From NCBI GenBank assembly GCA_026692885.1, contig JAPLNJ010000308.1, forward strand, positions 1 through 10,136: DNA of 10,136 nt, in the 5' to 3' direction. Numbering within the stretch: position 1 is the stretch's first letter; each line of letters starts with the position of its first letter. This stretch comes from Planctomycetota bacterium (GTDB lineage Bacteria > Planctomycetota > Planctomycetia > Pirellulales > Pirellulaceae). The notes under the pieces were generated by a model. That model worked only from the letters and a program-made list of their open reading frames with translations. It was not told the origin of the DNA and did not search any database. The position numbers were made by a program, and so were the translations under genes. Shown here piece by piece: positions 1 to 10,136 of the stretch.

Positions 1-363
1 CAGGCGTCTCTCGACGAAATAACGGAGGGCTTCGCCAACTGCCTCCCCATCTTCGGGCCATCGGACAGGGAACGGCAACACGGCTACGCTGTTGTGGTTC
101 AGTGCCTCGTGGAATCCGTGCCCGATCTCGTGAGCCACGGCTTCAGCTTCGCACCCCAGAAATAGCTTGATAAAGCCTGTGTCTTCGCTCTCGCCCTTCC
201 AGGCCGCCGTGCCCACCTCGTCCACCCACTCGTACCACAACACCCTCTTGAAAGGTAAGCCGATTTCCAGAAGCAGGTCGTATGTGGCCTGCTCGACCCG
301 ACTCACGTCTTCAAGTTTGGGATGGCACTTCATGGCGTTGACCCCATAGCCGAATCCCGTCAC
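1..363 (-). CDS. Putative zinc metalloprotease (HEIGH motif), partial, C-terminus beyond left edge
   Basis: The reading frame is open for 121 codons from a GTG at 363 to the window edge. GTG overlaps the TGA of the upstream gene (GTGA), which suggests translational coupling; an in-frame ATG at 333 is an alternative start, and neither has a strong ribosome binding site. Residues 78-85 read HEIGHGFH, a zincin-type HExxH motif with an extra histidine three residues on. About 25 residues later comes an acidic helix (E104, E107, E111, in the segment EAVGEALRYF) that could supply the third zinc ligand, as in gluzincins or ImmA/IrrE-like peptidases. No signal peptide is visible, so a cytoplasmic role is likely. 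It is the last visible gene of the minus-strand element operon. ImmA/IrrE peptidases commonly regulate mobile elements by cleaving repressors, but the family assignment is only inferred and the spacing is not a perfect ImmA match. Confidence 0.65.
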   Translation of the reverse strand, partial: MTGFGYGVNAMKCHPKLEDVSRVEQATYDLLLEIGLPFKRVLWYEWVDEVGTAAWKGESEDTGFIKLFLGCEAEAVAHEIGHGFHEALNHNSVAVLPFPVRWPEDGEAVGEALRYFVERRL

Positions 364-731
364 TTAGCCTTCTTCTTCGCCTTGGGCTTGGCCTTCCTCG
401 CCAGCACCTTTTCCTTGCCGGCCTTCAGGATCGGCTGGGCCGCCTTGGCACACGCCGCAATCCACTGCATCGTCGCGATAGCCTCGTCGTACCGCTCGGC
501 CAGTTCTTCGGGGTTGTCTGCGGTTCCCTTGGCGATTTCGATGACCGGATCGTTCGCCCGGAACCAAACCTGGGAGAACTTGCGAAGCCATGCCTCGCTT
601 TCATGCAGCAGCTGATCCAGGCGACCTTCCAGTGTCGCAGGTGCTGACGGTCGTGGCCCCGACTTGGGCCATTTGTAGTGGCGGAACGTGTACACGTCAT
701 CTGCCTTCGGGTTTCGCTTGAACTGTGTCAT
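360..731 (-). CDS. Small protein with lysine/alanine-rich basic C-terminal tail, function unknown
   Basis: It encodes 123 residues from ATG 731. The start is chosen for a good ribosome binding site (GGAG at 743-740, 8-nt spacer); the frame stays open upstream to a TTG at 1010, but that extension has low-complexity, proline/arginine-rich composition. The N-terminus is hydrophilic with aromatic residues (DVYTFRHYKWPKSG). The middle (about residues 33-100) looks alpha-helical and acidic to amphipathic. The last 20 or so residues are a KAKPKAKKKAK-type tail, resembling the histone H1-like tails that bind nucleic acid. I do not recognise the family. The stop overlaps the start of the downstream HEIGH protease by 4 bases, so the two are probably co-translated. 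It lies downstream of a terminator that follows the helicase gene, so it may have its own promoter in 732-1006. Confidence 0.72.
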   Translation of the reverse strand: MTQFKRNPKADDVYTFRHYKWPKSGPRPSAPATLEGRLDQLLHESEAWLRKFSQVWFRANDPVIEIAKGTADNPEELAERYDEAIATMQWIAACAKAAQPILKAGKEKVLARKAKPKAKKKAK

Positions 732-1006
732 GGTGCGTTCTCCAGTGCTGGTTGGGATTCTGGGAAACCGGGGGCACATCGGCCGGTCGCCGTCTGGTGC
801 CGGGACGCCGACCAACATGATGGGCCAAGAACGCCCGCTTCGCAACTGGCCTGCCCGCCAGGATCGCCCTAGCGCGTCTTCGATATGCTGCGGGTCCAGT
901 ATTGCCGCGTTCGGTCCCGCCGTAGGCTCGCCTTTGCCGGCCGAGACGGGATCTGGTCGGAGTGGCTCAGCCATCGCGGCCACGAGCGGACGGCGAAACG
1001 GCAGGG
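732..1006 (-). other. Spacer between element helicase terminator and small basic protein
   Basis: About 275 bases separate the terminator from the next gene start. On the minus strand the frame of the downstream gene stays open through it, so an N-terminal extension beginning at TTG 1010 or an internal ATG cannot be excluded. The composition and the well-placed ribosome binding site at 743-740 argue against it. I see no clear promoter. Confidence 0.35.
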
Positions 1007-1049
1007 CCAAAAGAAACGCCCCCGGTCCCGTGGTCGGGAGCCGGGGGCG
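1007..1049 (-). terminator. Intrinsic terminator after the element helicase gene
   Basis: Bases 1017-1025 (CGCCCCCGG) pair perfectly with 1041-1049 (CCGGGGGCG). An inner stem, 1026-1030 (TCCCG) with 1035-1039 (CGGGA), closes a 4-nt loop, with a single G bulge at 1040. Read on the minus strand the hairpin is followed at 1016-1007 by TTTCTTTTGG. It starts 53 nt after the helicase stop. No T-tract follows on the plus strand, so the direction is minus. Confidence 0.65.
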
Positions 1050-1101
1050 TGTGCACGTTCACAAGAACCGAGACGCTGGGGATCTTCGGATACCCCGGTG
1101 T

Positions 1102-2799
1102 CTATTCACCGTCCTCCGGGATCGGCTCTTTCGACAGCAGGCTGAACCGGTATCGAGTCGTGACCTTGCCATCCTCGAAACGACGCCGGCCCTTGTCCAG
1201 TTGCACCGCCACAGTTTCGTCGGTGGTTTCCACCTCGAACGTCTCGTCGCGGTGTGCCGAGAAAACAAGCCCCAGGCCCCGCTCGCGGCCAGCCTGTGTA
1301 TCGCGGTCGGCCTCCGGGATCAACCGCTTGGTCAGCCCCAAGTCCCCGGCCACGAGCACCCATTCCCCTGTCCGCAGCCATTCGTTCGGCCGAGCCGCAC
1401 CGAGCAGGCCGAGACCGCTGCGGAGCGGATCATCCTCCGTCTTGCGGACCCTGAGGTTTCCAAGGAAGCCCTTGAACCCAGCGACCATGAGGATGCCCCC
1501 GATTGTTCGAGCCCATCCGCTGAATGGGTGCTTGGCGGTGTCATCCAACGGTTGTCCTTCCGCCTTCCAGCGGGCAATCAATCCTCGCAGCTCCGACGCG
1601 ATCTCTTCGCGGTGAGCGGGGAGGTACTCCAACTTCGGATTGCCGATCGGCGATTCGCGACGGGCGACGTCGCCCACCGGGTTCAGGTGAATCGGCAAGG
1701 CTCGGTTCATCAAGTCCTCGCTGATCTTGCCGAAGTTTGTCGAGGCGGCGACCACCAGATTATTGGTCCGCCTGGTGGCATCGCCCGTACCGGTGCTGAA
1801 GAGTACCGGTTGGGGATCGGTCAAGAATCGCTCCAGAAAAGCAGACCCAACCGTCTCGTTGCCCTTCAGCCGGATGTTTTCGATGTTGATCACGCCCAGG
1901 TCCGAATTGTGTTTCACCAGCAAGACGAAGTTCTTCTGTAACGCCCAATCGGCTCGCTCGTACGAAACGGACGAGAGCGGCGTCTGGCCGGCTGCAAAGG
2001 CAATAATAGTGTCCTTACCGCCATGCGACTTCGTACTGGTCACCGCCACCAGCGGCTTGGCCCCCGGCCAGAAGTTCCGCAGCATGACGGTCAGGGCGGC
2101 GGCGACGGCGTTGGTCCGGTCGGACTCGCTGTCGAACACCATCACGTCCAGGAAGCGATTCATCGCCTCGGGGGTGAACTTGGCGGTGGCCGTTTTGCCG
2201 ACGTAGTAGATCCGTTGGCCCGGGCCACCGTCGTTGTAGCCTGGCTCGGTGAGCACGAAGCCAGGCAGAAACATCGGTGAAGAGACAACCAAGTCCAGCG
2301 GACGCAACTGCTGAAGAAATGCCTCGGAGGCCAGCATCGTGCTCAAGTGCGTGGCCGAGGGCATACTGCCCGCTGGCTTGCTTTTCTTGAAGACCTTGAT
2401 CCGTACTCGATCCGCGATTGCTGGGGCCAATTCGGAACCCTTTGCGATCGTCTTGGGCATAATCAACGGACACGACGACGCCATCAGCAGGCCACTGCCG
2501 TGTTGCGGAGCCCGGTAGAGGTCGCCGCACTCCGCGAGCCGCTGTCCAAGGTCCACATAGTTGTCCACAGGCGGGGCGTCGTCGTCCCACAGGAACGGCT
2601 TCGTGTCCTGCAAGGCTTGGGGACTCGGAAAGTCGGAACCGGCCGAACCCATTTCACTGCCGGTACAAATGATCAAAGCGTCCGGGACCACCGCGGGCTT
2701 CGTAGCGGTCTGTACCGCGATGGCCGTTTTCCTGGAATCGGCGGGGGGCGATTTCAACAAAGCAAGCTCGCCGCCATTGGAGTTCTTCTTACCAATCAT
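1102..2799 (-). CDS. AAA+/P4-like helicase-ATPase of mobile-element replication type
   Basis: It encodes 565 residues. ATG 2799 is chosen because AGGA (2809-2806) sits 6 nt upstream and the ATG overlaps the preceding stop (ATGA); a GTG at 2868 in the same frame is less likely. Residues 251-266 carry a variant Walker A loop (TSTKSHGGKDT, with GGKDT in place of GKT/S). Residues 302-310 (GVINIENIR) may hold an acidic metal-binding segment. Residues 349-372 (VVAASTNFGKISEDLMNR then ALPIHL) match the sensor-1/arginine-finger pattern of phage P4/D5-type primase-helicases, where a Thr-Asn is followed by a Leu-x-x-Arg motif (here LMNR) and a conserved PI-L strand. The N-terminal ~200 residues are not recognised and show no clear primase motif; the C-terminal ~100 residues look like a beta-rich, DNA-binding-type extension. 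Such proteins drive replication of satellites and integrative elements, which fits the nearby tRNA attachment site. The precise subfamily is uncertain. Confidence 0.88.
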   Translation of the reverse strand: MIGKKNSNGGELALLKSPPADSRKTAIAVQTATKPAVVPDALIICTGSEMGSAGSDFPSPQALQDTKPFLWDDDAPPVDNYVDLGQRLAECGDLYRAPQHGSGLLMASSCPLIMPKTIAKGSELAPAIADRVRIKVFKKSKPAGSMPSATHLSTMLASEAFLQQLRPLDLVVSSPMFLPGFVLTEPGYNDGGPGQRIYYVGKTATAKFTPEAMNRFLDVMVFDSESDRTNAVAAALTVMLRNFWPGAKPLVAVTSTKSHGGKDTIIAFAAGQTPLSSVSYERADWALQKNFVLLVKHNSDLGVINIENIRLKGNETVGSAFLERFLTDPQPVLFSTGTGDATRRTNNLVVAASTNFGKISEDLMNRALPIHLNPVGDVARRESPIGNPKLEYLPAHREEIASELRGLIARWKAEGQPLDDTAKHPFSGWARTIGGILMVAGFKGFLGNLRVRKTEDDPLRSGLGLLGAARPNEWLRTGEWVLVAGDLGLTKRLIPEADRDTQAGRERGLGLVFSAHRDETFEVETTDETVAVQLDKGRRRFEDGKVTTRYRFSLLSKEPIPEDGE

Positions 2800-3116
2800 G
2801 TTATGTCCTTTTCTGTCGGCGATCGGGACCCCGCCCGACACACCCGACACACTACACACACCCGGCACACCACCGACGATGGCGGTTGATTTTTCGCCTC
2901 CTCGTCGAGGTGTGCGAGGACCGCCCCGTAGTTGTAGGGTCGGTAAACTTCGTCATCACTTGCTGATGTATCGAAGCCAACGCGGTCGGTACGTCGAGGC
3001 TCCGAACGGAGCAACGGCAGACCGTACGCGAACGCACGTGGCAATTTGCGATACGCCGAATCGGGCATTCGATTGGCATTGGAAGACGAAGAATCGCGAT
3101 GCGATCTACGCAACAT
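2796..3116 (-). CDS. Small hypothetical protein with CxxCxxCxxC C-terminal cluster, first gene of element operon
   Basis: It encodes 106 residues from ATG 3116, chosen for a GAGGG ribosome binding site with a 9-nt spacer; a TTG at 3125 overlaps that site and is less likely. Its stop overlaps the helicase start by 4 bases (ATGA), which supports a real, coupled gene. The N-terminal half is basic (arginine and serine rich). The middle reads DDEVYRPYNYGAVLAHLDEE, which looks like ordinary folded sequence. Near the end is CRVCVVCRVC, four cysteines with exact CxxC spacing, encoded by a low-complexity GTGTG-rich tract. No family is recognised. The cysteines could bind zinc or simply reflect the repeat. 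The next reading frame through the same repeat runs into the helicase, so a frameshifted fusion of the two proteins is also possible. Confidence 0.5.
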   Translation of the reverse strand: MLRRSHRDSSSSNANRMPDSAYRKLPRAFAYGLPLLRSEPRRTDRVGFDTSASDDEVYRPYNYGAVLAHLDEEAKNQPPSSVVCRVCVVCRVCRAGSRSPTEKDIT

Positions 3117-3308
3117 TATTCTCAACCCTCGCCAATCGGTGTGTTAGGGCCAGACCCGGCGTTAGCCGAACCCAGCCATCCAGGGCATTTCGTTGCCCAT
3201 ACCTTCTGACTAACACCAACTTGTCGGCTCAAAGTCGCCAAGGGCTAAGAGGCCCAAAGTTTGGCGGCCACGCCAACGACACACTATCGATCCGAGGGTA
3301 CTCAGAAA

Positions 3309-3340
3309 TCACGTCCTGTTCTAAAACAGGATCAACGTGA
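3309..3340. promoter_or_regulatory. Inverted repeat, candidate operator
   Basis: TCCTGTT (3314-3320) and AACAGGA (3325-3331) form a perfect 7-bp inverted repeat around CTAA. Outer arms TCACGT (3309-3314) and ACGTGA (3335-3340) extend it with a 3-nt offset. It sits about 200 bp upstream of the first element gene, has no T-tract, and looks more like a dimeric regulator site than a terminator. The role is inferred. Confidence 0.35.
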
Positions 3341-3751
3341 CATGCAGGCATCCTATCGCTTGCCGACGCTTAGTCAAGATGCCGCAGCCAAAGATTTTTC
3401 AGGCCGTCGCGGCGAGCAACCGACTACGAAGCGGCAGACGGCACGTCTAAGCCCAACCCCTGGCCACGAGGTCATCTCCCTGCGACGACAAGGGTGTATG
3501 GTGCGGCAACGGTGAGGGAGGGGTCGCCCCAAGTGCCGCTGCGTGACGCAGCCCCAGGCACGGGCCTAGTGGCACGCTGGACACTCAAACGGCCCCACGG
3601 CCCTTGGACGCAAGCTGCGAGCGGCTGGTGGGACTGCGGCCGAAATCACCATTCCGCCACAGCACTCCACCCACTATGCGTAGGCAAGATTTCCTGGTCT
3701 TGCGGACCGTTTGATGAGGGCTTACGATGCTTGTTCGAACGGCAGTTTTGT

Positions 3752-3775
3752 CCCCCCACTAATCCCCCCACTAAT
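3752..3775. repeat. Tandem duplication of CCCCCCACTAAT
   Basis: Two perfect head-to-tail copies of the 12-mer CCCCCCACTAAT occupy 3752-3763 and 3764-3775. They lie 16 bp before the phased 13-mers and 112 bp before the tRNA fragment. Confidence 0.85.
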
Positions 3776-3790
3776 GAACAAAATCTGCAT

Positions 3791-3869
3791 TTGGTTGAAG
3801 CGTTGTCAAAACTTGGTGAAAGCGTAACACCTTGAATTGCAAGCACTTGGGGAAGAGTGGTGAAAGCGT
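3791..3869 (+). repeat. Three phased 13-mer repeats next to the attachment site
   Basis: TTGGTTGAAGCGT (3791-3803), TTGGTGAAAGCGT (3813-3825) and GTGGTGAAAGCGT (3857-3869) start 22 and 44 bp apart, about two and four helical turns, so all present the same DNA face. The second and third share 12 identical bases; the first differs from the second at two positions. They end 18 bp before the tRNA fragment. Arm-type integrase sites, excisionase sites or replication iterons are all plausible. Confidence 0.65.
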
Positions 3870-3887
3870 GGTTTAGGCATTTAAGGA

Positions 3888-3929
3888 CTACGGAACCGAA
3901 GGTTACAGGTTCGAGCCCTGTTGGGTGTA
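3888..3929 (+). tRNA. 3' half of tRNA-Arg(ACG): attachment-site remnant, not a functional tRNA
   Basis: Every 3' structural element of a tRNA is present with canonical lengths: anticodon loop CTACGGA (3888-3894, anticodon ACG), 3' anticodon stem ACCGA (3895-3899), 5-nt variable loop AGGTT, T arm ACAGG-TTCGAGC-CCTGT (3905-3921), 3' acceptor strand TGGGTGT (3922-3928) and discriminator A (3929); CCA is not encoded. The expected 5' strands (TCGGT before the anticodon loop, ACACCCA at the acceptor) are absent upstream. An intrinsic terminator follows 7 bases later, so this is the native tRNA 3' end. Tyrosine-recombinase elements commonly integrate at such tRNA sites, restoring a whole tRNA at one end and leaving the displaced 3' piece at the other. 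Here the element is inferred to lie to the left. Confidence 0.8.
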
Positions 3930-3936
3930 CTCCGAG

Positions 3937-3966
3937 AAGGCCAGTCCAGATAGGACTGGCCTTTTT
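3937..3966 (+). terminator. Intrinsic terminator of the tRNA-Arg gene
   Basis: GGCCAGTCC (3939-3947) and GGACTGGCC (3953-3961) form a perfect 9-bp stem with loop AGATA, extended to 11 bp by AA/TT, and followed by TTTTT (3962-3966). It directly follows the tRNA 3' half and would end its native transcript. Confidence 0.9.
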
Positions 3967-4001
3967 CGTTTCTGTTACTCAAATCGTTTGCAGCATTTGG
4001 C

Positions 4002-4243: not shown

Positions 4244-4312
4244 ATGATCGGTGCTCGCCCCAGCTCAGTGCAAGGGGACAGGCACCGATCATCCGTGACC
4301 GGAGCCTGTCCC
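4244..4312. repeat. REP-like element of two interleaved inverted repeats in the leader
   Basis: ATGATCGGTGC (4244-4254) pairs perfectly with GCACCGATCAT (4282-4292), and GGGACAGGC (4275-4283) pairs with GCCTGTCCC (4304-4312). The arms overlap at 4282-4283 and interleave, so the two hairpins exclude each other. The GGGGACAGGC/GCCTGTCCC core resembles intergenic palindromes scattered through planctomycete genomes and linked to REP-associated IS200-like transposases (from memory, unverified). It ends 21 nt before the ceramidase ATG, so it would be transcribed into the 5' leader. Confidence 0.7.
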
Positions 4313-4333
4313 ATTTTGATCGGAGAGTCGCTC

Positions 4334-5854
4334 ATGAATCGCATCCTGCATCGGGCGTTATTGTCGCTGCTGACCTGCTCCTGCCTGACCGGCACCCTGG
4401 CGACCGCCGCCGAGTCGCCGCGAAGCGGGCAACTGCTTTTCGGCTGGGCCAGCCAGAGTATCACGCCGGACAAGCCTGTGGCGGTCGGTGGCCAATACCA
4501 TACGCGGATCAGCGGCGTGGTCCACGATTCCCTCTCTGCCACGGCGTTGGCCATGGAAACTCGCGATGCGCAAGGCAGCATCGACCAGGCCGTGATCGTC
4601 TCGTGCGATTTGTCGCTCATTAGGCACCAAACCCAGGATCGTGTCCGCGAACTGGTACGGCCACAACTGCCGGACCTGGACGTAGAGAAGATCCTGGTCT
4701 CGGCCACGCACACTCACACCGCGCCGGCGCTGACCGACACGGACGAAACCAATTTGCATCCCTACGACTTTATCGGCAGTTGGGCCTATCGGATCCCGGC
4801 GAACCAAGCCGCCGTGATGCGGCCGGCTCAGTATTTGGCGTTTCTGGCGGAGCGGATCAGCGCGGCGGTCGTGGAAGCATGGAAGACGCGGCAGCCCGGC
4901 AGCCTGAGCTCCGCGCTCAGCCACGCCGAGATCGCTCACAACCGCCGCGCGGTATATGCCGACGGCACGGCGCGGATGTACGGCGACACCAGCGATCCGA
5001 AATTCTCACACATCGAGGGCGTCTCGGACCATTCCGTGGACGTGCTGTTCTTCTGGCGAGACCATACGCGGCTGGCGGGGCTGGCCATCAACGTCTACTG
5101 CACCGCGCAGGAAATGGAAGGCGAGAACTGCCTCTCCGCCGACTTCTGGTACGATGCGCGGAAGCTGCTGCGGGAGAAGTACCACGCGGACCTGTACGTC
5201 CTGCCGCTGGTCGGAGCCGCCGGTGATCAATCTCCGCACCTGTTGTGGAACAAGAGTGCCGAGGCGGCGATGCGGCAGCGCCGCACGTTGACCAGCCGTG
5301 AGGAAATCGCACGACGAATCCTGCGGGCGGTCGAGGACGTGGAATCGTTGGCACGCCAGAATCCGCAACGCGAGTTGCTGTTTCAACATCGCGTGGCCCG
5401 CGTGCCGCTGCCCGTCTGGCAGGTCTCTGACGAACGCTGCGTTCAGGCTCAAGCCGTGGTTGAGGCAGGCCTGGACAAGACCGAGTCGCTGCCCAGCCCA
5501 GAGTACATCAACTGGCGAGTCAGCCGGACGCTTGCTGCCCGCCACGCTATCCAGAAGCAGGAACCATGCTACCAGGCCGAACTGCACTTCCTCAGGTTGG
5601 GCGAATTGGCGGTGACGACGAATCCTTTCGAGCTCTTCGTGGACTACGGCTTGCAGATCAAAGCCGGCAGTCCCGCGGTGCAGACCTGCGTGGTGCAACT
5701 GACGGCCGACTGCGCCGCCTATCTGCCGACCGAACGAGCCGTCCGCGCTGGGGGTTATAGCGCTCGCATCGACGACGGCGTGGTCGGCCCCGAGGGCGGG
5801 AAGGTCCTCGTCGAGCAGACCGCCCGCATCCTGAAGGAAATGTGGGGCAAGTGA
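4334..5854 (+). CDS. Secreted neutral/alkaline ceramidase-like protein
   Basis: It encodes 506 residues. ATG 4334 is chosen because GGAG (4322-4325) lies 8 nt upstream and a signal peptide follows at once (hydrophobic residues 8-24, cleavage near ATAA-ES); the frame extends to 4244 only through the repeat. It fits the neutral/alkaline non-lysosomal ceramidase N-terminal family, zinc amidases that hydrolyse N-acyl sphingosine: GWASQSITP (37-45), metal-binding HTHTAP (126-131), HNRR (202-205), GAAGDQSPH (294-302, with S300 at the usual serine nucleophile position of GDxSP), TNPFELFVDYG (429-439), and YLPTERAV followed by GGYSA (463-477). It is shorter than classical ceramidases (about 650 residues) and lacks their C-terminal immunoglobulin-like domain, as is common in planctomycete members. 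The substrate may not be ceramide. It looks monocistronic, with the nearest plus-strand gene 628 bp downstream. Confidence 0.92.
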   Translation: MNRILHRALLSLLTCSCLTGTLATAAESPRSGQLLFGWASQSITPDKPVAVGGQYHTRISGVVHDSLSATALAMETRDAQGSIDQAVIVSCDLSLIRHQTQDRVRELVRPQLPDLDVEKILVSATHTHTAPALTDTDETNLHPYDFIGSWAYRIPANQAAVMRPAQYLAFLAERISAAVVEAWKTRQPGSLSSALSHAEIAHNRRAVYADGTARMYGDTSDPKFSHIEGVSDHSVDVLFFWRDHTRLAGLAINVYCTAQEMEGENCLSADFWYDARKLLREKYHADLYVLPLVGAAGDQSPHLLWNKSAEAAMRQRRTLTSREEIARRILRAVEDVESLARQNPQRELLFQHRVARVPLPVWQVSDERCVQAQAVVEAGLDKTESLPSPEYINWRVSRTLAARHAIQKQEPCYQAELHFLRLGELAVTTNPFELFVDYGLQIKAGSPAVQTCVVQLTADCAAYLPTERAVRAGGYSARIDDGVVGPEGGKVLVEQTARILKEMWGK

Positions 5855-6482
5855 GAGCTTGCGAGGGCGCGCTGCTGCCTGGAGGACATCTTTCGCAACC
5901 GCAAAGGGAACTGCGGTAAAGGTCCTGGTCTACGGCGGCCAAGGCTTCTGGCTGTGCCAATAACGGCTTTCGCAGGGACGCTTCTCCTGGTGGCCCAGCA
6001 GCGACACCGCGGTCATCGCCCTCTTCTTTACCAGTCCGCAGCATGCCGGCGTCAGAAATCAAAGGGGTCAGTCAGAAATCAAAGGGGTCAGGTCAGAAAT
6101 CAAAGGGGTCAGGACTCATTGATTCGCGTTCTTGAGAGATGTTAAGCTCTGGGCATGCCACGACCAGTCTCCAGATCGGGGCGTTTCCGCCGTAGCCAAT
6201 AGCGGCGGGACGGAAGCGTATCAACGATCGCCGAAGGATAGCGTTGGCATTTGCTTTTCCGTCCCCTTCTCCCGGAGTGCCGGCAAAAGCCAGTGGTGTT
6301 TCGGCTGGGGCTCGCCTGCTGGGCGACTGGTCGCCTATCGCCACTGGGGGGCAAACGACGGAGACACCACCACAGCGATTGCCCGCTGCTGAGCTACGGA
6401 CGGCTTGCGGGCCGTTCCGGGAAAGGCAAGAATGATACCCTATCGCGAGCTTCCTGGTGCCTCTTGATCTTGGAGTCGACCC
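5855..6482. other. Intergenic region with palindromes and REP-like repeats, no gene
   Basis: No convincing gene is present. There is a short inverted repeat ACCGCA/TGCGGT (5898-5917) soon after the ceramidase stop with no T-tract, a triple 20-mer repeat (6051-6111), and a palindromic block at 6290-6347 with arms CCAGTGG (6290-6296) and CCACTGG (6341-6347) around GGCGAC-TG-GTCGCC (6322-6335). I found no clear promoter for the downstream gene. Confidence 0.5.
6051..6111 (+). repeat. Three copies of a 20-bp REP-like unit
   Basis: The unit GTCAGAAATCAAAGGGGTCA occurs exactly at 6051-6070, 6071-6090 and 6092-6111, with one extra G before the third copy. After the last copy, GGACTCATTGATTC completes an AATCAA/TTGATT inverted-repeat arm. 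The AAAGGGGTCAGGACTC core resembles repeats seen between planctomycete genes (from memory). The copies touch each other with no spacers, so this is not a CRISPR array. Confidence 0.9.
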
Positions 6483-8313: not shown

Positions 8314-8911
8314 ATGGAAGGACCCCAAAGCAACCGACGGATCGTCTTGGGAATGGGCACGGGACAGTGTGGAACCGTATTGCTTGCCCAGATTCTGGGC
8401 AAGCAGCACGACGCGCGCGTGACCCACGAGCAGCCACCCTTGCTGCCGTGGAACCGCCGGCCTGGAGTTCCCGGAATCCGCGAACGGGTGCAGCGCCTGC
8501 TGGCCACACGTAAGGCGAGACTGGTGGGGGACGTGGCCTCGTTCTACCTGCCCTACGCCGAAGATGCCATCGAATTCAACTCGCAAGTCCGTATCGTCTG
8601 CCTTCGTCGGCCGTGCGACGAGGTGGTCGCCGGTTTTTGGAAGTTCCTGGATCAGACGGTGCCGTTTCCCATCAATCACTGGGCGCAGTAGCCGGCTCCC
8701 GGATGATACCACGATCCCATTTGGACGCGGATCTTTCCGCAGTACGACACGCCGGACCGAGAAGATGGCCTCCGTCGCTACTGGGAGGAGTACTATGCGG
8801 CCGCGCCGAAGGATTGATTCGACGCTTTCCGGACAATATCCGCGTGTGGGACACGGACGTGCTCACCTCCGAAGAGGGCGTGCGCGAGGTGTTGTCGTTT
8901 GTGGGCATCCA
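8314..8911 (+). pseudogene. P-loop sulfotransferase pseudogene (two nonsense codons, one frameshift)
   Basis: ATG 8314 (GGAG 9 nt upstream) starts a 125-residue frame with sulfotransferase features: the 5'-phosphosulfate loop VLGMGTGQCGTVLL (residues 11-24, with Q where R is usual), VGDVASFYLPY (71-81) and the 3'-phosphate segment VRIVCLRRPCDEVVAGF (92-108). TAG at 8689 ends it, and TGA follows in frame at 8704. The same frame then resumes typical family sequence (YHDPIWTRIFPQYD, then RRYWEEYYAAA) to TGA 8815. The conserved end (EGLIRRFPDNIRVW, then SEEGVREVLSFVGI) continues one frame over, needing a 1-nt deletion or 2-nt insertion near 8803-8808. Homology stops at about 8909. Intact members transfer sulfate from PAPS to sugars or other acceptors. 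Several independent lesions and loss of the C-terminus make it inactive. Confidence 0.87.
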
Positions 8912-9398
8912 AAGCCCACAATCCAGCGTGCCCAGCACTCCCGCCAGTCCGCAAATAGAGCTCGTGCCGTCCGTCTGCCTGGTAGGGTGACCTACGTTCC
9001 AAGAGCACCCACTGCCGGACCCACTCGGCGACGCCGGCCTGACTCAACTGCTCAAGACTGGCAGGCTCATCCGGGTCGTTCGCCCCGGTCTTACGAAAGT
9101 GATGGGCAAGCAAGATGGTGCATCCCGTCGCCTGGCCCAACGCGGTCAGTGGTGCCAACGCCGGCCCCATCGCGAATACGTTTGACGCCTGGCCGGCCGT
9201 GCGCGCGTCCAGGAGGGTGAGATACAACGGGTCGATGACTGCAACCTCGATTCCCCGTTGACGGATCACTTCGCCCATCGCGGCCAGGTGATCGTCTCGG
9301 CAGAGTTTGGGCAGGTCGAAAGACCAGTAGACTTCGGCAGCGTCTACGCATCCGCCCAACGTAGGACAAACGTCCCGCGCTGCGGATACAGGCGGGCC
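8907..9398 (-). pseudogene. RepA-like (RecA-fold) replicative helicase fragment, both ends missing
   Basis: The minus-strand frame contains the C-terminal half of a RepA-like AAA ATPase as found on plasmids and integrative elements: AAEVYWSFDLPKL, the Walker B strand GIEVAVIDPLYLTLLD, TILLAHHFRKTG, AGVAEWVRQWVLLERRS and RHELYLRTGGSAGHAGLWALD with the usual order and spacing. The frame is open from 9506, but upstream of about 9398 it becomes arginine/glycine/serine-rich filler. The Walker A loop and N-terminus are not found in any frame; a piece in another frame (ERFVVGRPRPACI) may be a scrambled relic of the strand before it. Downstream, homology ends at the aspartate encoded by 8909-8907, exactly where the convergent sulfotransferase pseudogene begins. 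It is interpreted as a remnant of a mobile element, truncated by a rearrangement. Confidence 0.75.
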
Positions 9399-10136
9399 GG
9401 GGACGGCCAACGACGAACCGCTCCGCGAGCGGTCGCGGGATTCGGCACCCTGGCGCAGGTTGCGGCCGAGCCGGCCTGGCGACGCACACCCGGTCTCGCG
9501 CGCCACCGCACGGCGTGCAGCCGAGCCTGCGGACTATTGGGCTGTGGTTCGGGACGTTGCCCGCCCCACGGCCGAATCGCCCGCCGTTATCTGCCGCTCG
9601 CCGCTCCCGGCCGGTCGTGACGTTCCTCGACGGGTACGAGCTTCCGCGACGGTCGCAGCATGCTCGCCGAGACGGCGGCGGAGCCAGGCTGCCCGCACCT
9701 CCGGCTGTCACCGCATCCTGGCGTCAGCCGCTGCGCCCCCCAAGCCGGACCGTTGCCAGCACTGACAGCAGTTCGCAACCCTGCAATCCAGGCCCCGGCC
9801 GTGAGTCCCCCCCACCCCCATGCCATCCGAAGCCCCCGCCGAAACTAACAGAAGCTGACATGCACCCGTGTGGCGGAGGCAAGCATCCCTCATGCCTGTT
9901 GGTCGAACACGCTACCGACTGGCGCTGGCTGCAAGAACGCATTGCATGGGTCCTGGACTCGCCCAAGAAAGGGCGGCATGCTCAATAAGGCAGCGATACC
10001 CTGCAACTGATCGTCCAAGAGGCTTGATGAGGTACCCTCGCCGCTCTGAAAGCCAGCTTGACTACCAGTCCTTCCATGCATAGCCCGCTTGGGGTTCGTC
10101 GGAGAGGGAGCTTGGCCAGCGATTACTCCGTGGAAG
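9399..10136. other. No recognisable gene; probably decayed DNA
   Basis: Many overlapping frames are open, but their products are arginine, proline and alanine-rich, as expected of random GC-rich DNA. One plus-strand piece (VEHATDWRWLQERIAW, near 9900-9950) looks like natural protein and could continue after a stop as GSDTLQLIVQEA, but it has no clear start or family. No repeat, tRNA or promoter stands out. Confidence 0.4.

Follow-up and report, generated by a model that had tools for sequence, protein, structure and literature searches.

The right end of a probable integrative element at a tRNA-Arg(ACG) half, and an arm motif pointing to a likely new clade of planctomycete integrative elements

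The 10,136 nt analysed here (the window) make up an entire contig, and positions 3888–3929 within it are very probably the attR site of an integrative element, generated by a tyrosine integrase of the lambda/L5 kind recombining at the anticodon loop and stem of a tRNA-Arg(ACG) gene. This reading is based on a tRNA 3′ half that has no 5′ half, the equal break point of relatives, a matching pair of element ends in genome G101 and an arm motif placed at a fixed spacing from the half. The far end of the element and its integrase lie beyond the contig. At a wider scale, it is likely that planctomycetes harbour an undescribed clade of integrative elements, in which both attP arms carry one arm signal, (CCCCCCACTAAT)x2, at constant distances, the core changes from one tRNA gene to another (Arg ACG, TCG, CCG, probably CCT, Lys CTT and CAT) and one arm usually lies inside the integrase gene, as the C-terminal LVGGLVGG. 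The features of the window are:

1–3887, no strand: right part of the integrated element, ending at the half tRNA and carrying the arm signal at 3752–3775; regarded as a single element
1102–2868, minus strand: primase/helicase-like protein of mobile elements, 588 aa (PHROG families)
3752–3775, plus strand: tandem pair CCCCCCACTAAT-CCCCCCACTAAT, proposed arm-type sites of the integrase on the P arm (tRNA association and fixed attL/attR distances)
3792–3803, plus strand: TGGTTGAAGCGT, the first copy of a 12-nt repeat that is found three times from arm to core; candidate sites for an excisionase or the integrase
3814–3825, plus strand: TGGTGAAAGCGT, second 12-nt repeat of the same family
3858–3869, plus strand: TGGTGAAAGCGT, third 12-nt repeat, at the position of a common GGAAAGCGT-like block in aligned attR arms
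3888–3902, plus strand: CTACGGAACCGAAGG, where the crossover is proposed; it covers the anticodon loop and the 3′ side of the anticodon stem (the intact-tRNA match starts at 3888)
3888–3929, plus strand: 3′ half of tRNA-Arg(ACG), probably the displaced host half (attR); it has no 5′ half, and chimeric joining restores a tRNA
3937–3966, plus strand: intrinsic terminator that presumably belongs to the tRNA-Arg gene
4334–5854, plus strand: ceramidase-like gene, first on the chromosomal side (PF04734 in many of the homologues listed)

The segment 3888–3929 is a tRNA 3′ half, extending from nucleotide 32 to the discriminator of a planctomycete tRNA-Arg(ACG), and reads CTACGGA (loop, 32–38) ACCGA AGGTT ACAGG TTCGAGC CCTGT TGGGTGT A. 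An intact tRNA-Arg(ACG) gene (L083) has the form GCACCCC-TAGCTCAATTGGATAGAGCATCGGT-CTACGGA-ACCGA-AGGTT-ACAGG-TTCGAGC-CCTGT-GGGGTGT-A, from which the half differs at one position, in the acceptor stem (counted by eye on the printed rows). The initial annotation, which had described these 42 bases as a tRNA-Arg(ACG) 3′ half running from the anticodon loop to the discriminator, had the coordinates right, with 41 of 42 bases matching L083. With up to 3 mismatches allowed, a 25-nt piece of the half has a single occurrence in the window and none in 200 shuffles. Neither strand of the window holds a 5′ half (at up to 9 substitutions in 32), as had been claimed, or a D-arm (up to 5 substitutions in 19), and no second copy of the half was found in the window at up to 13 substitutions; ARAGORN called no tRNA there and Rfam gave no match at E≤1. 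A matching 5′ partner, GCACCCA, is present in a relative (G046), and when the 5′ half of this G046 tRNA was joined to positions 3888–3975 the product was called as tRNA-Arg(acg), with every stem formed and one acceptor pair being G-T.

The half is followed, as the initial annotation had stated, by a terminator with perfect arms of 11 bp (3937–3947 and 3953–3963), a loop of 5 and a T-run, for which the hairpin scan counted 14 pairs. A hairpin with a T-run likewise stands behind the half of another genome, G109 (by eye), and the terminator at 3937–3966 is presumed to be native to the tRNA-Arg gene. A 3′ half without a 5′ half, followed by the downstream DNA of the tRNA gene (the nativeness of the terminator being presumed), is the arrangement of a tRNA-integrated element. 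The exact 42-mer had no match in the genome_contigs or viral_contigs collections and none, with up to 3 mismatches allowed, in 7 genomes that have relatives of the ceramidase-like protein; the junction DNA matched nothing in plasmid and phage DNA. There is no clear shift in base composition at 3888, and this measure is uninformative on the boundary.

The same scar was found in relatives. A tRNA-Arg pattern was searched for in 147 relatives of the Pirellulaceae MAG that carries a 74% ceramidase-like locus, and 145 genomes matched. Fourteen places of tRNA-Arg(ACG) type, mostly from genomes picked for having several copies (G101, G109, G121, G136, G110 and G124), were then compared; 5 were complete genes and 9 were halves. 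In all nine halves the match is lost at nucleotide 32, with unrelated DNA leftward (at L140 it is lost one base further, by chance), so that these are insertions of the same kind as that in the window. In G101, a full tRNA-Arg(ACG) (C1:350081) and a half (C1:390385) lie in direct orientation with 40.3 kb between them, a tyrosine integrase (350195–351766) directly follows the full tRNA, and a double motif is found at 350196 and 390250; this pair is a complete element of the type that the initial annotation had proposed. Its view of the window half as a tRNA integration scar is thus supported by the like break of nine relatives' halves, by the G101 pair with its integrase and by an arm signal at attR distance. 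Other halves among these places (in G109, G121, G136, G110 and at G101 C1:521884) belong to elements with the same tRNA-Arg(ACG) and the same break at nucleotide 32 as the window but, unlike it, the stretches fetched around them do not contain the double CCCCCCACTAAT motif, and these elements therefore presumably use other integrases. In G110, one element end was seen in three copies (L135, L136 and L137) with very similar left arms, a tRNA-Arg half that breaks off within the acceptor stem and different DNA behind each copy.

The left flank of the window half aligns with element ends of other genomes. Compared with the flank of the G101 half, it has in common a tandem pair, CCCCCCACNAAT twice, amid otherwise diverged DNA. 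With up to 1 mismatch, the double motif was found in 9 of 346 genomes of the order, once per genome, and the motif read backwards in none of the 346; all nine places adjoin a tRNA, complete in seven cases and a half in two. The 2-mismatch level is noisier, the reversed motif giving 3 hits in 28 genomes. The double motif also turned up in one viral contig (L157); this lacks a tRNA and was taken as a chance match. The search was also reversed, from protein to DNA, with the integrase of G259 as a query against class genomes; for members of the (CCCCCCACTAAT)x2 clade, an integrase of the P0241 family would be expected. Relatives at E≤1e-30 were present in 35 of 397 genomes, at no fewer than 30 loci; among those listed, 24 have at least 49% identity and 6 have 38–41%. 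The motif was recovered at 19 of the 24 closer loci (17 within 1 mismatch of the degenerate form, one with 2 and one with 4), 5 of these 24 being in genomes already found by the motif search; at the limits used it was missing from the other five closer loci and from all six of the more distant ones.

The distances of the motif from the tRNA are fixed. For this comparison, 44 motif sites in 24 genomes were classified, namely every site with 0–1 mismatch and one with 2 mismatches (G662); another 2-mismatch hit (L226, in G299) failed the stricter expression and stayed outside. Nucleotide 32 was located by means of the T-loop, 60–160 nt upstream and 60–200 nt downstream of the motif, and one site (G655d) was re-read after a spurious 66-nt hit had been dropped. 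The sites are partly orthologous (G510, G531, G535 and G581), so not all of them are independent. Twenty are attL-like, with an intact tRNA upstream and the motif starting 115–118 nt right of nucleotide 32, and nine are attR-like, with a tRNA half downstream and the motif starting 135–136 nt left of nucleotide 32. In the window this distance is 136 nt, which places its double 12-nt motif among the attR sites of the (CCCCCCACTAAT)x2 clade. Six sites carry an attL-type arm at 114–117 nt with only a half tRNA, as expected for junctions of tandem elements, and at L232 (G447) one half lies between both arms, in an attP-like layout. Another six consist of a P arm with 12–16 nt of core and then unrelated DNA that carries open reading frames; they represent three places in G655 (L208, L229 and L230) and one orthologous place in G535 (L237), G531 (L238) and G510 (L222). 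They may come from integration at secondary sites, in which case the crossover would be narrowed down. Three sites (G657, G662 and G510d) were unclassifiable, being at contig ends or without a recognisable tRNA. The target tRNAs include Arg ACG, TCG and CCG, Lys CTT and CAT, and the half of G183 resembles Arg CCT (by eye).

The two clade integrases used as queries detected no integrase in the window, and that of the window element would be expected at its left end, beyond the contig. For the clade integrase, the predicted model (pTM 0.50) has lambda Int as its best structural match (Foldseek TM 0.38, query), and a catalytic and a core-binding domain, as in heterobivalent tyrosine integrases, are recognised in it; the structural matches span only residues of about 101–515, not the arm-binding domain. 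In the N-terminal region, three strands and a helix are predicted for residues 10–64. A PDB sequence search with the integrase gave no hits; its listed homologues include proteins from Stieleria, Roseiconus and Gimesia. Between arm and core stand three 12-nt repeats, spaced by 22 and 44 nt, whose three-copy score was unreached in 300 single-base shuffles; they have a weak parallel in G101, at nearly equal offsets (9/12 bases), and none in G183.

In the mechanism that we propose, a tyrosine integrase coded near the left end of the element, beyond the contig, would carry out an exchange between a tRNA 3′ half borne by the element and the tRNA-Arg(ACG) gene of the chromosome, inside the anticodon loop and the 3′ anticodon stem. 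At the far end an intact tRNA would be rebuilt with the half of the element, and the half of the host, with its terminator, would be displaced to 3888–3966. A crossover within 3888–3902 is proposed, because the match to intact tRNAs begins at 3888 and the six truncated P arms keep just 12–16 nt of core. The integrase, of the heterobivalent lambda/L5 kind, would bind the core, and its N-terminal domain would bind the tandem 12-bp arm sites (CCCCCCACTAAT)x2 flanking the core, to the left by about 136 nt and to the right by about 117 nt, counted from nucleotide 32; the TGGTGAAAGCGT repeats spaced by 22/44 nt between arm and core are probably sites of an excision factor. The half tRNA, the direct-repeat pair of G101 and the arm motif with its spacing are observed, whereas we infer the roles in binding, the precise place of the crossover, an excision factor and the presence of a clade integrase in the window element.

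As the motif can be read both as DNA and as protein, (CCCCCCACTAAT)x2 might be conserved solely as the code for the C-terminal integrase peptide LVGGLVGG. Among the matches listed, 91 of 120 integrase homologues have a peptide of this form exactly 30 residues from the C-terminus, and reading frames, which were checked at 10 attR sites (window included) and 15 of the 20 attL sites, place the attL motif inside the integrase frame, at the 3′ end of the gene, in 12 of 15 cases. However, no integrase frame covers the motif at any of the 10 attR sites or at 3 of the 15 attL sites (two in G447, one in G420), its distance is still fixed there, and the pair is interrupted by a stop codon at 5 of those 10 attR sites; the window frame that spans the motif has 110 open codons and no similarity to integrases. 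These observations make a purely coding role very improbable and favour the motif being selected as DNA, with the peptide as a by-product. The half itself could also be read in other ways. Some bacterial tRNA genes carry group I introns in the anticodon loop, which is where the break lies, and a split or intron-bearing gene would have its 5′ half upstream; in the window, neither such a half nor an intron core (at E≤1 in Rfam) was found, while the left flank aligns with the element ends of other genomes and carries the arm motif at attR distance, leaving this explanation with a negligible probability. An assembly chimera, in which unrelated sequences were joined at a tRNA repeat, is suggested by the shortness of the contig, which is probably metagenomic, and by the fact that a common tRNA half is a plausible point for a false join. 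Yet a join inside the half would still leave an element end leftward, with the P-arm motif at 136 nt as in nine relatives; a chimera is therefore improbable and, if there were one, the false part could be the pairing with the chromosomal flank.

The attR reading leaves room for doubt about the composition of the element. The initial annotation had defined 1–3887 as mobile; the right edge at the half tRNA stands, and, with the left end and the complete tRNA lying off the contig, we infer that the whole of this segment is one element. The primase-like gene (1102–2868) matches a PHROG family of unknown function (1.4e-8) and DNA polymerase/primase (5.9e-4). Its product belongs to a large family, found in 21 of 346 genomes of the order, six of which have close (45–54%) relatives; 27 pattern matches in viral_contigs were tried as relatives and none was confirmed. 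The gene is not a usual cargo of the integrase clade: of the 28 genomes with the integrase clade or the motif, it was found only in G101, outside the motif element, so that the window element is either unusual for the clade or a mosaic, and its left, primase-like part could be another element. The mosaic would combine an arm and a half derived from a motif-type element with a primase-like part that represents a second element, nested or recombined. The absence of the gene from 27 of the 28 clade or motif genomes speaks for it, as does that of the double motif from all five primase regions fetched outside G101 (L130–L134, 9.5–20 kb each), whereas 1–3887 contains no further copy of a tRNA half and replication genes are often exchanged among mobile elements; we regard a mosaic as possible but less likely than a single element. 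As a separate observation, a second tRNA-Arg(ACG) half in G101 (L128, C1:521884), without the double motif, bounds a stretch with a 50% relative of the window primase-like gene, 7.7 kb away and oriented, relative to the half, as it is in the window.

Some other observations concern the remaining parts of the window. On the element side, a tandem 18-nt repeat in two copies (ACACACCCGACACACTAC, 2838–2873) lies at the start of the primase-like gene, and the minus strand of 1–363 encodes a protein with a HEIGH motif (zinc-peptidase-like, by eye) that has no Pfam or PHROG match at E≤0.01. On the chromosomal side, overlapping short inverted repeats (of the AAGGGGACAGGCACCGATCA type, 4244–4315) directly precede the ceramidase-like gene, many listed homologues of which carry PF04734, which we take to be the ceramidase family. 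The product of this gene has a 95% relative on a 12-kb contig and further relatives at 70–78%. Among the matches listed, the closest locus, at 74%, is that of the Pirellulaceae MAG (L001); the stretch fetched from it holds no tRNA and, for this reason, it did not provide an empty site for the window locus. By these similarities the host is a planctomycete, perhaps one of the Pirellulaceae. Three near-tandem copies of GTCAGAAATCAAAGGGGTCAG (6051–6112) are placed between two genes. The region 8314–10136 contains short overlapping open reading frames (8314–8691 and 8613–8990), followed on the minus strand by AAA_25 gene remnants whose match is limited to the end of the profile; this is probably what is left of a second mobile element, located on the chromosomal side.

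If the clade is as proposed, a single sequence would tie together a protein and its DNA site. A half tRNA would become a usable signpost, since the motif and its spacing would locate both element ends in fragmented planctomycete genomes, and the motif would supply exact DNA sites for asking how an integrase clade keeps its arms and yet changes its tRNA target.

Elements integrated in tRNA genes are, as a general kind, already known, and the integrase clade with a common arm motif seems to be new: among open-licence papers on planctomycete integration sites or on the motif letters, nothing relevant to this clade or its arm motif was found. With lambda integrase, the clade integrase shares the predicted fold, with core-binding and catalytic domains. 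The attP of lambda also has arm sites on both sides of the core, whereas its attB is outside any tRNA and the sequence of its five arm sites is not that of CCCCCCACTAAT; the window site lies in a tRNA and its arm sequences differ. A closer likeness is found in the mycobacteriophages of the Boilgate/L5 type, temperate and tRNA-targeting phages with a tyrosine integrase. In PMC10865867, these are described as having a common core of 30–45 bp that includes the tRNA 3′ half, with an anticodon-loop site being common, the tRNA rebuilt at one junction and putative pairs of arm-type sites flanking the core; the tRNA-half core, the anticodon-loop site, the tRNA rebuilt at one junction and the flanking arm pairs are as in the planctomycete clade. 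These are phages; the window element may be a phage, a satellite, a conjugative element or an island. Unlike them, the planctomycete clade belongs to another host phylum, has another arm pair, which is abutting, C-rich and made of 12-bp units, and often encodes one of its arm pairs in the integrase gene.
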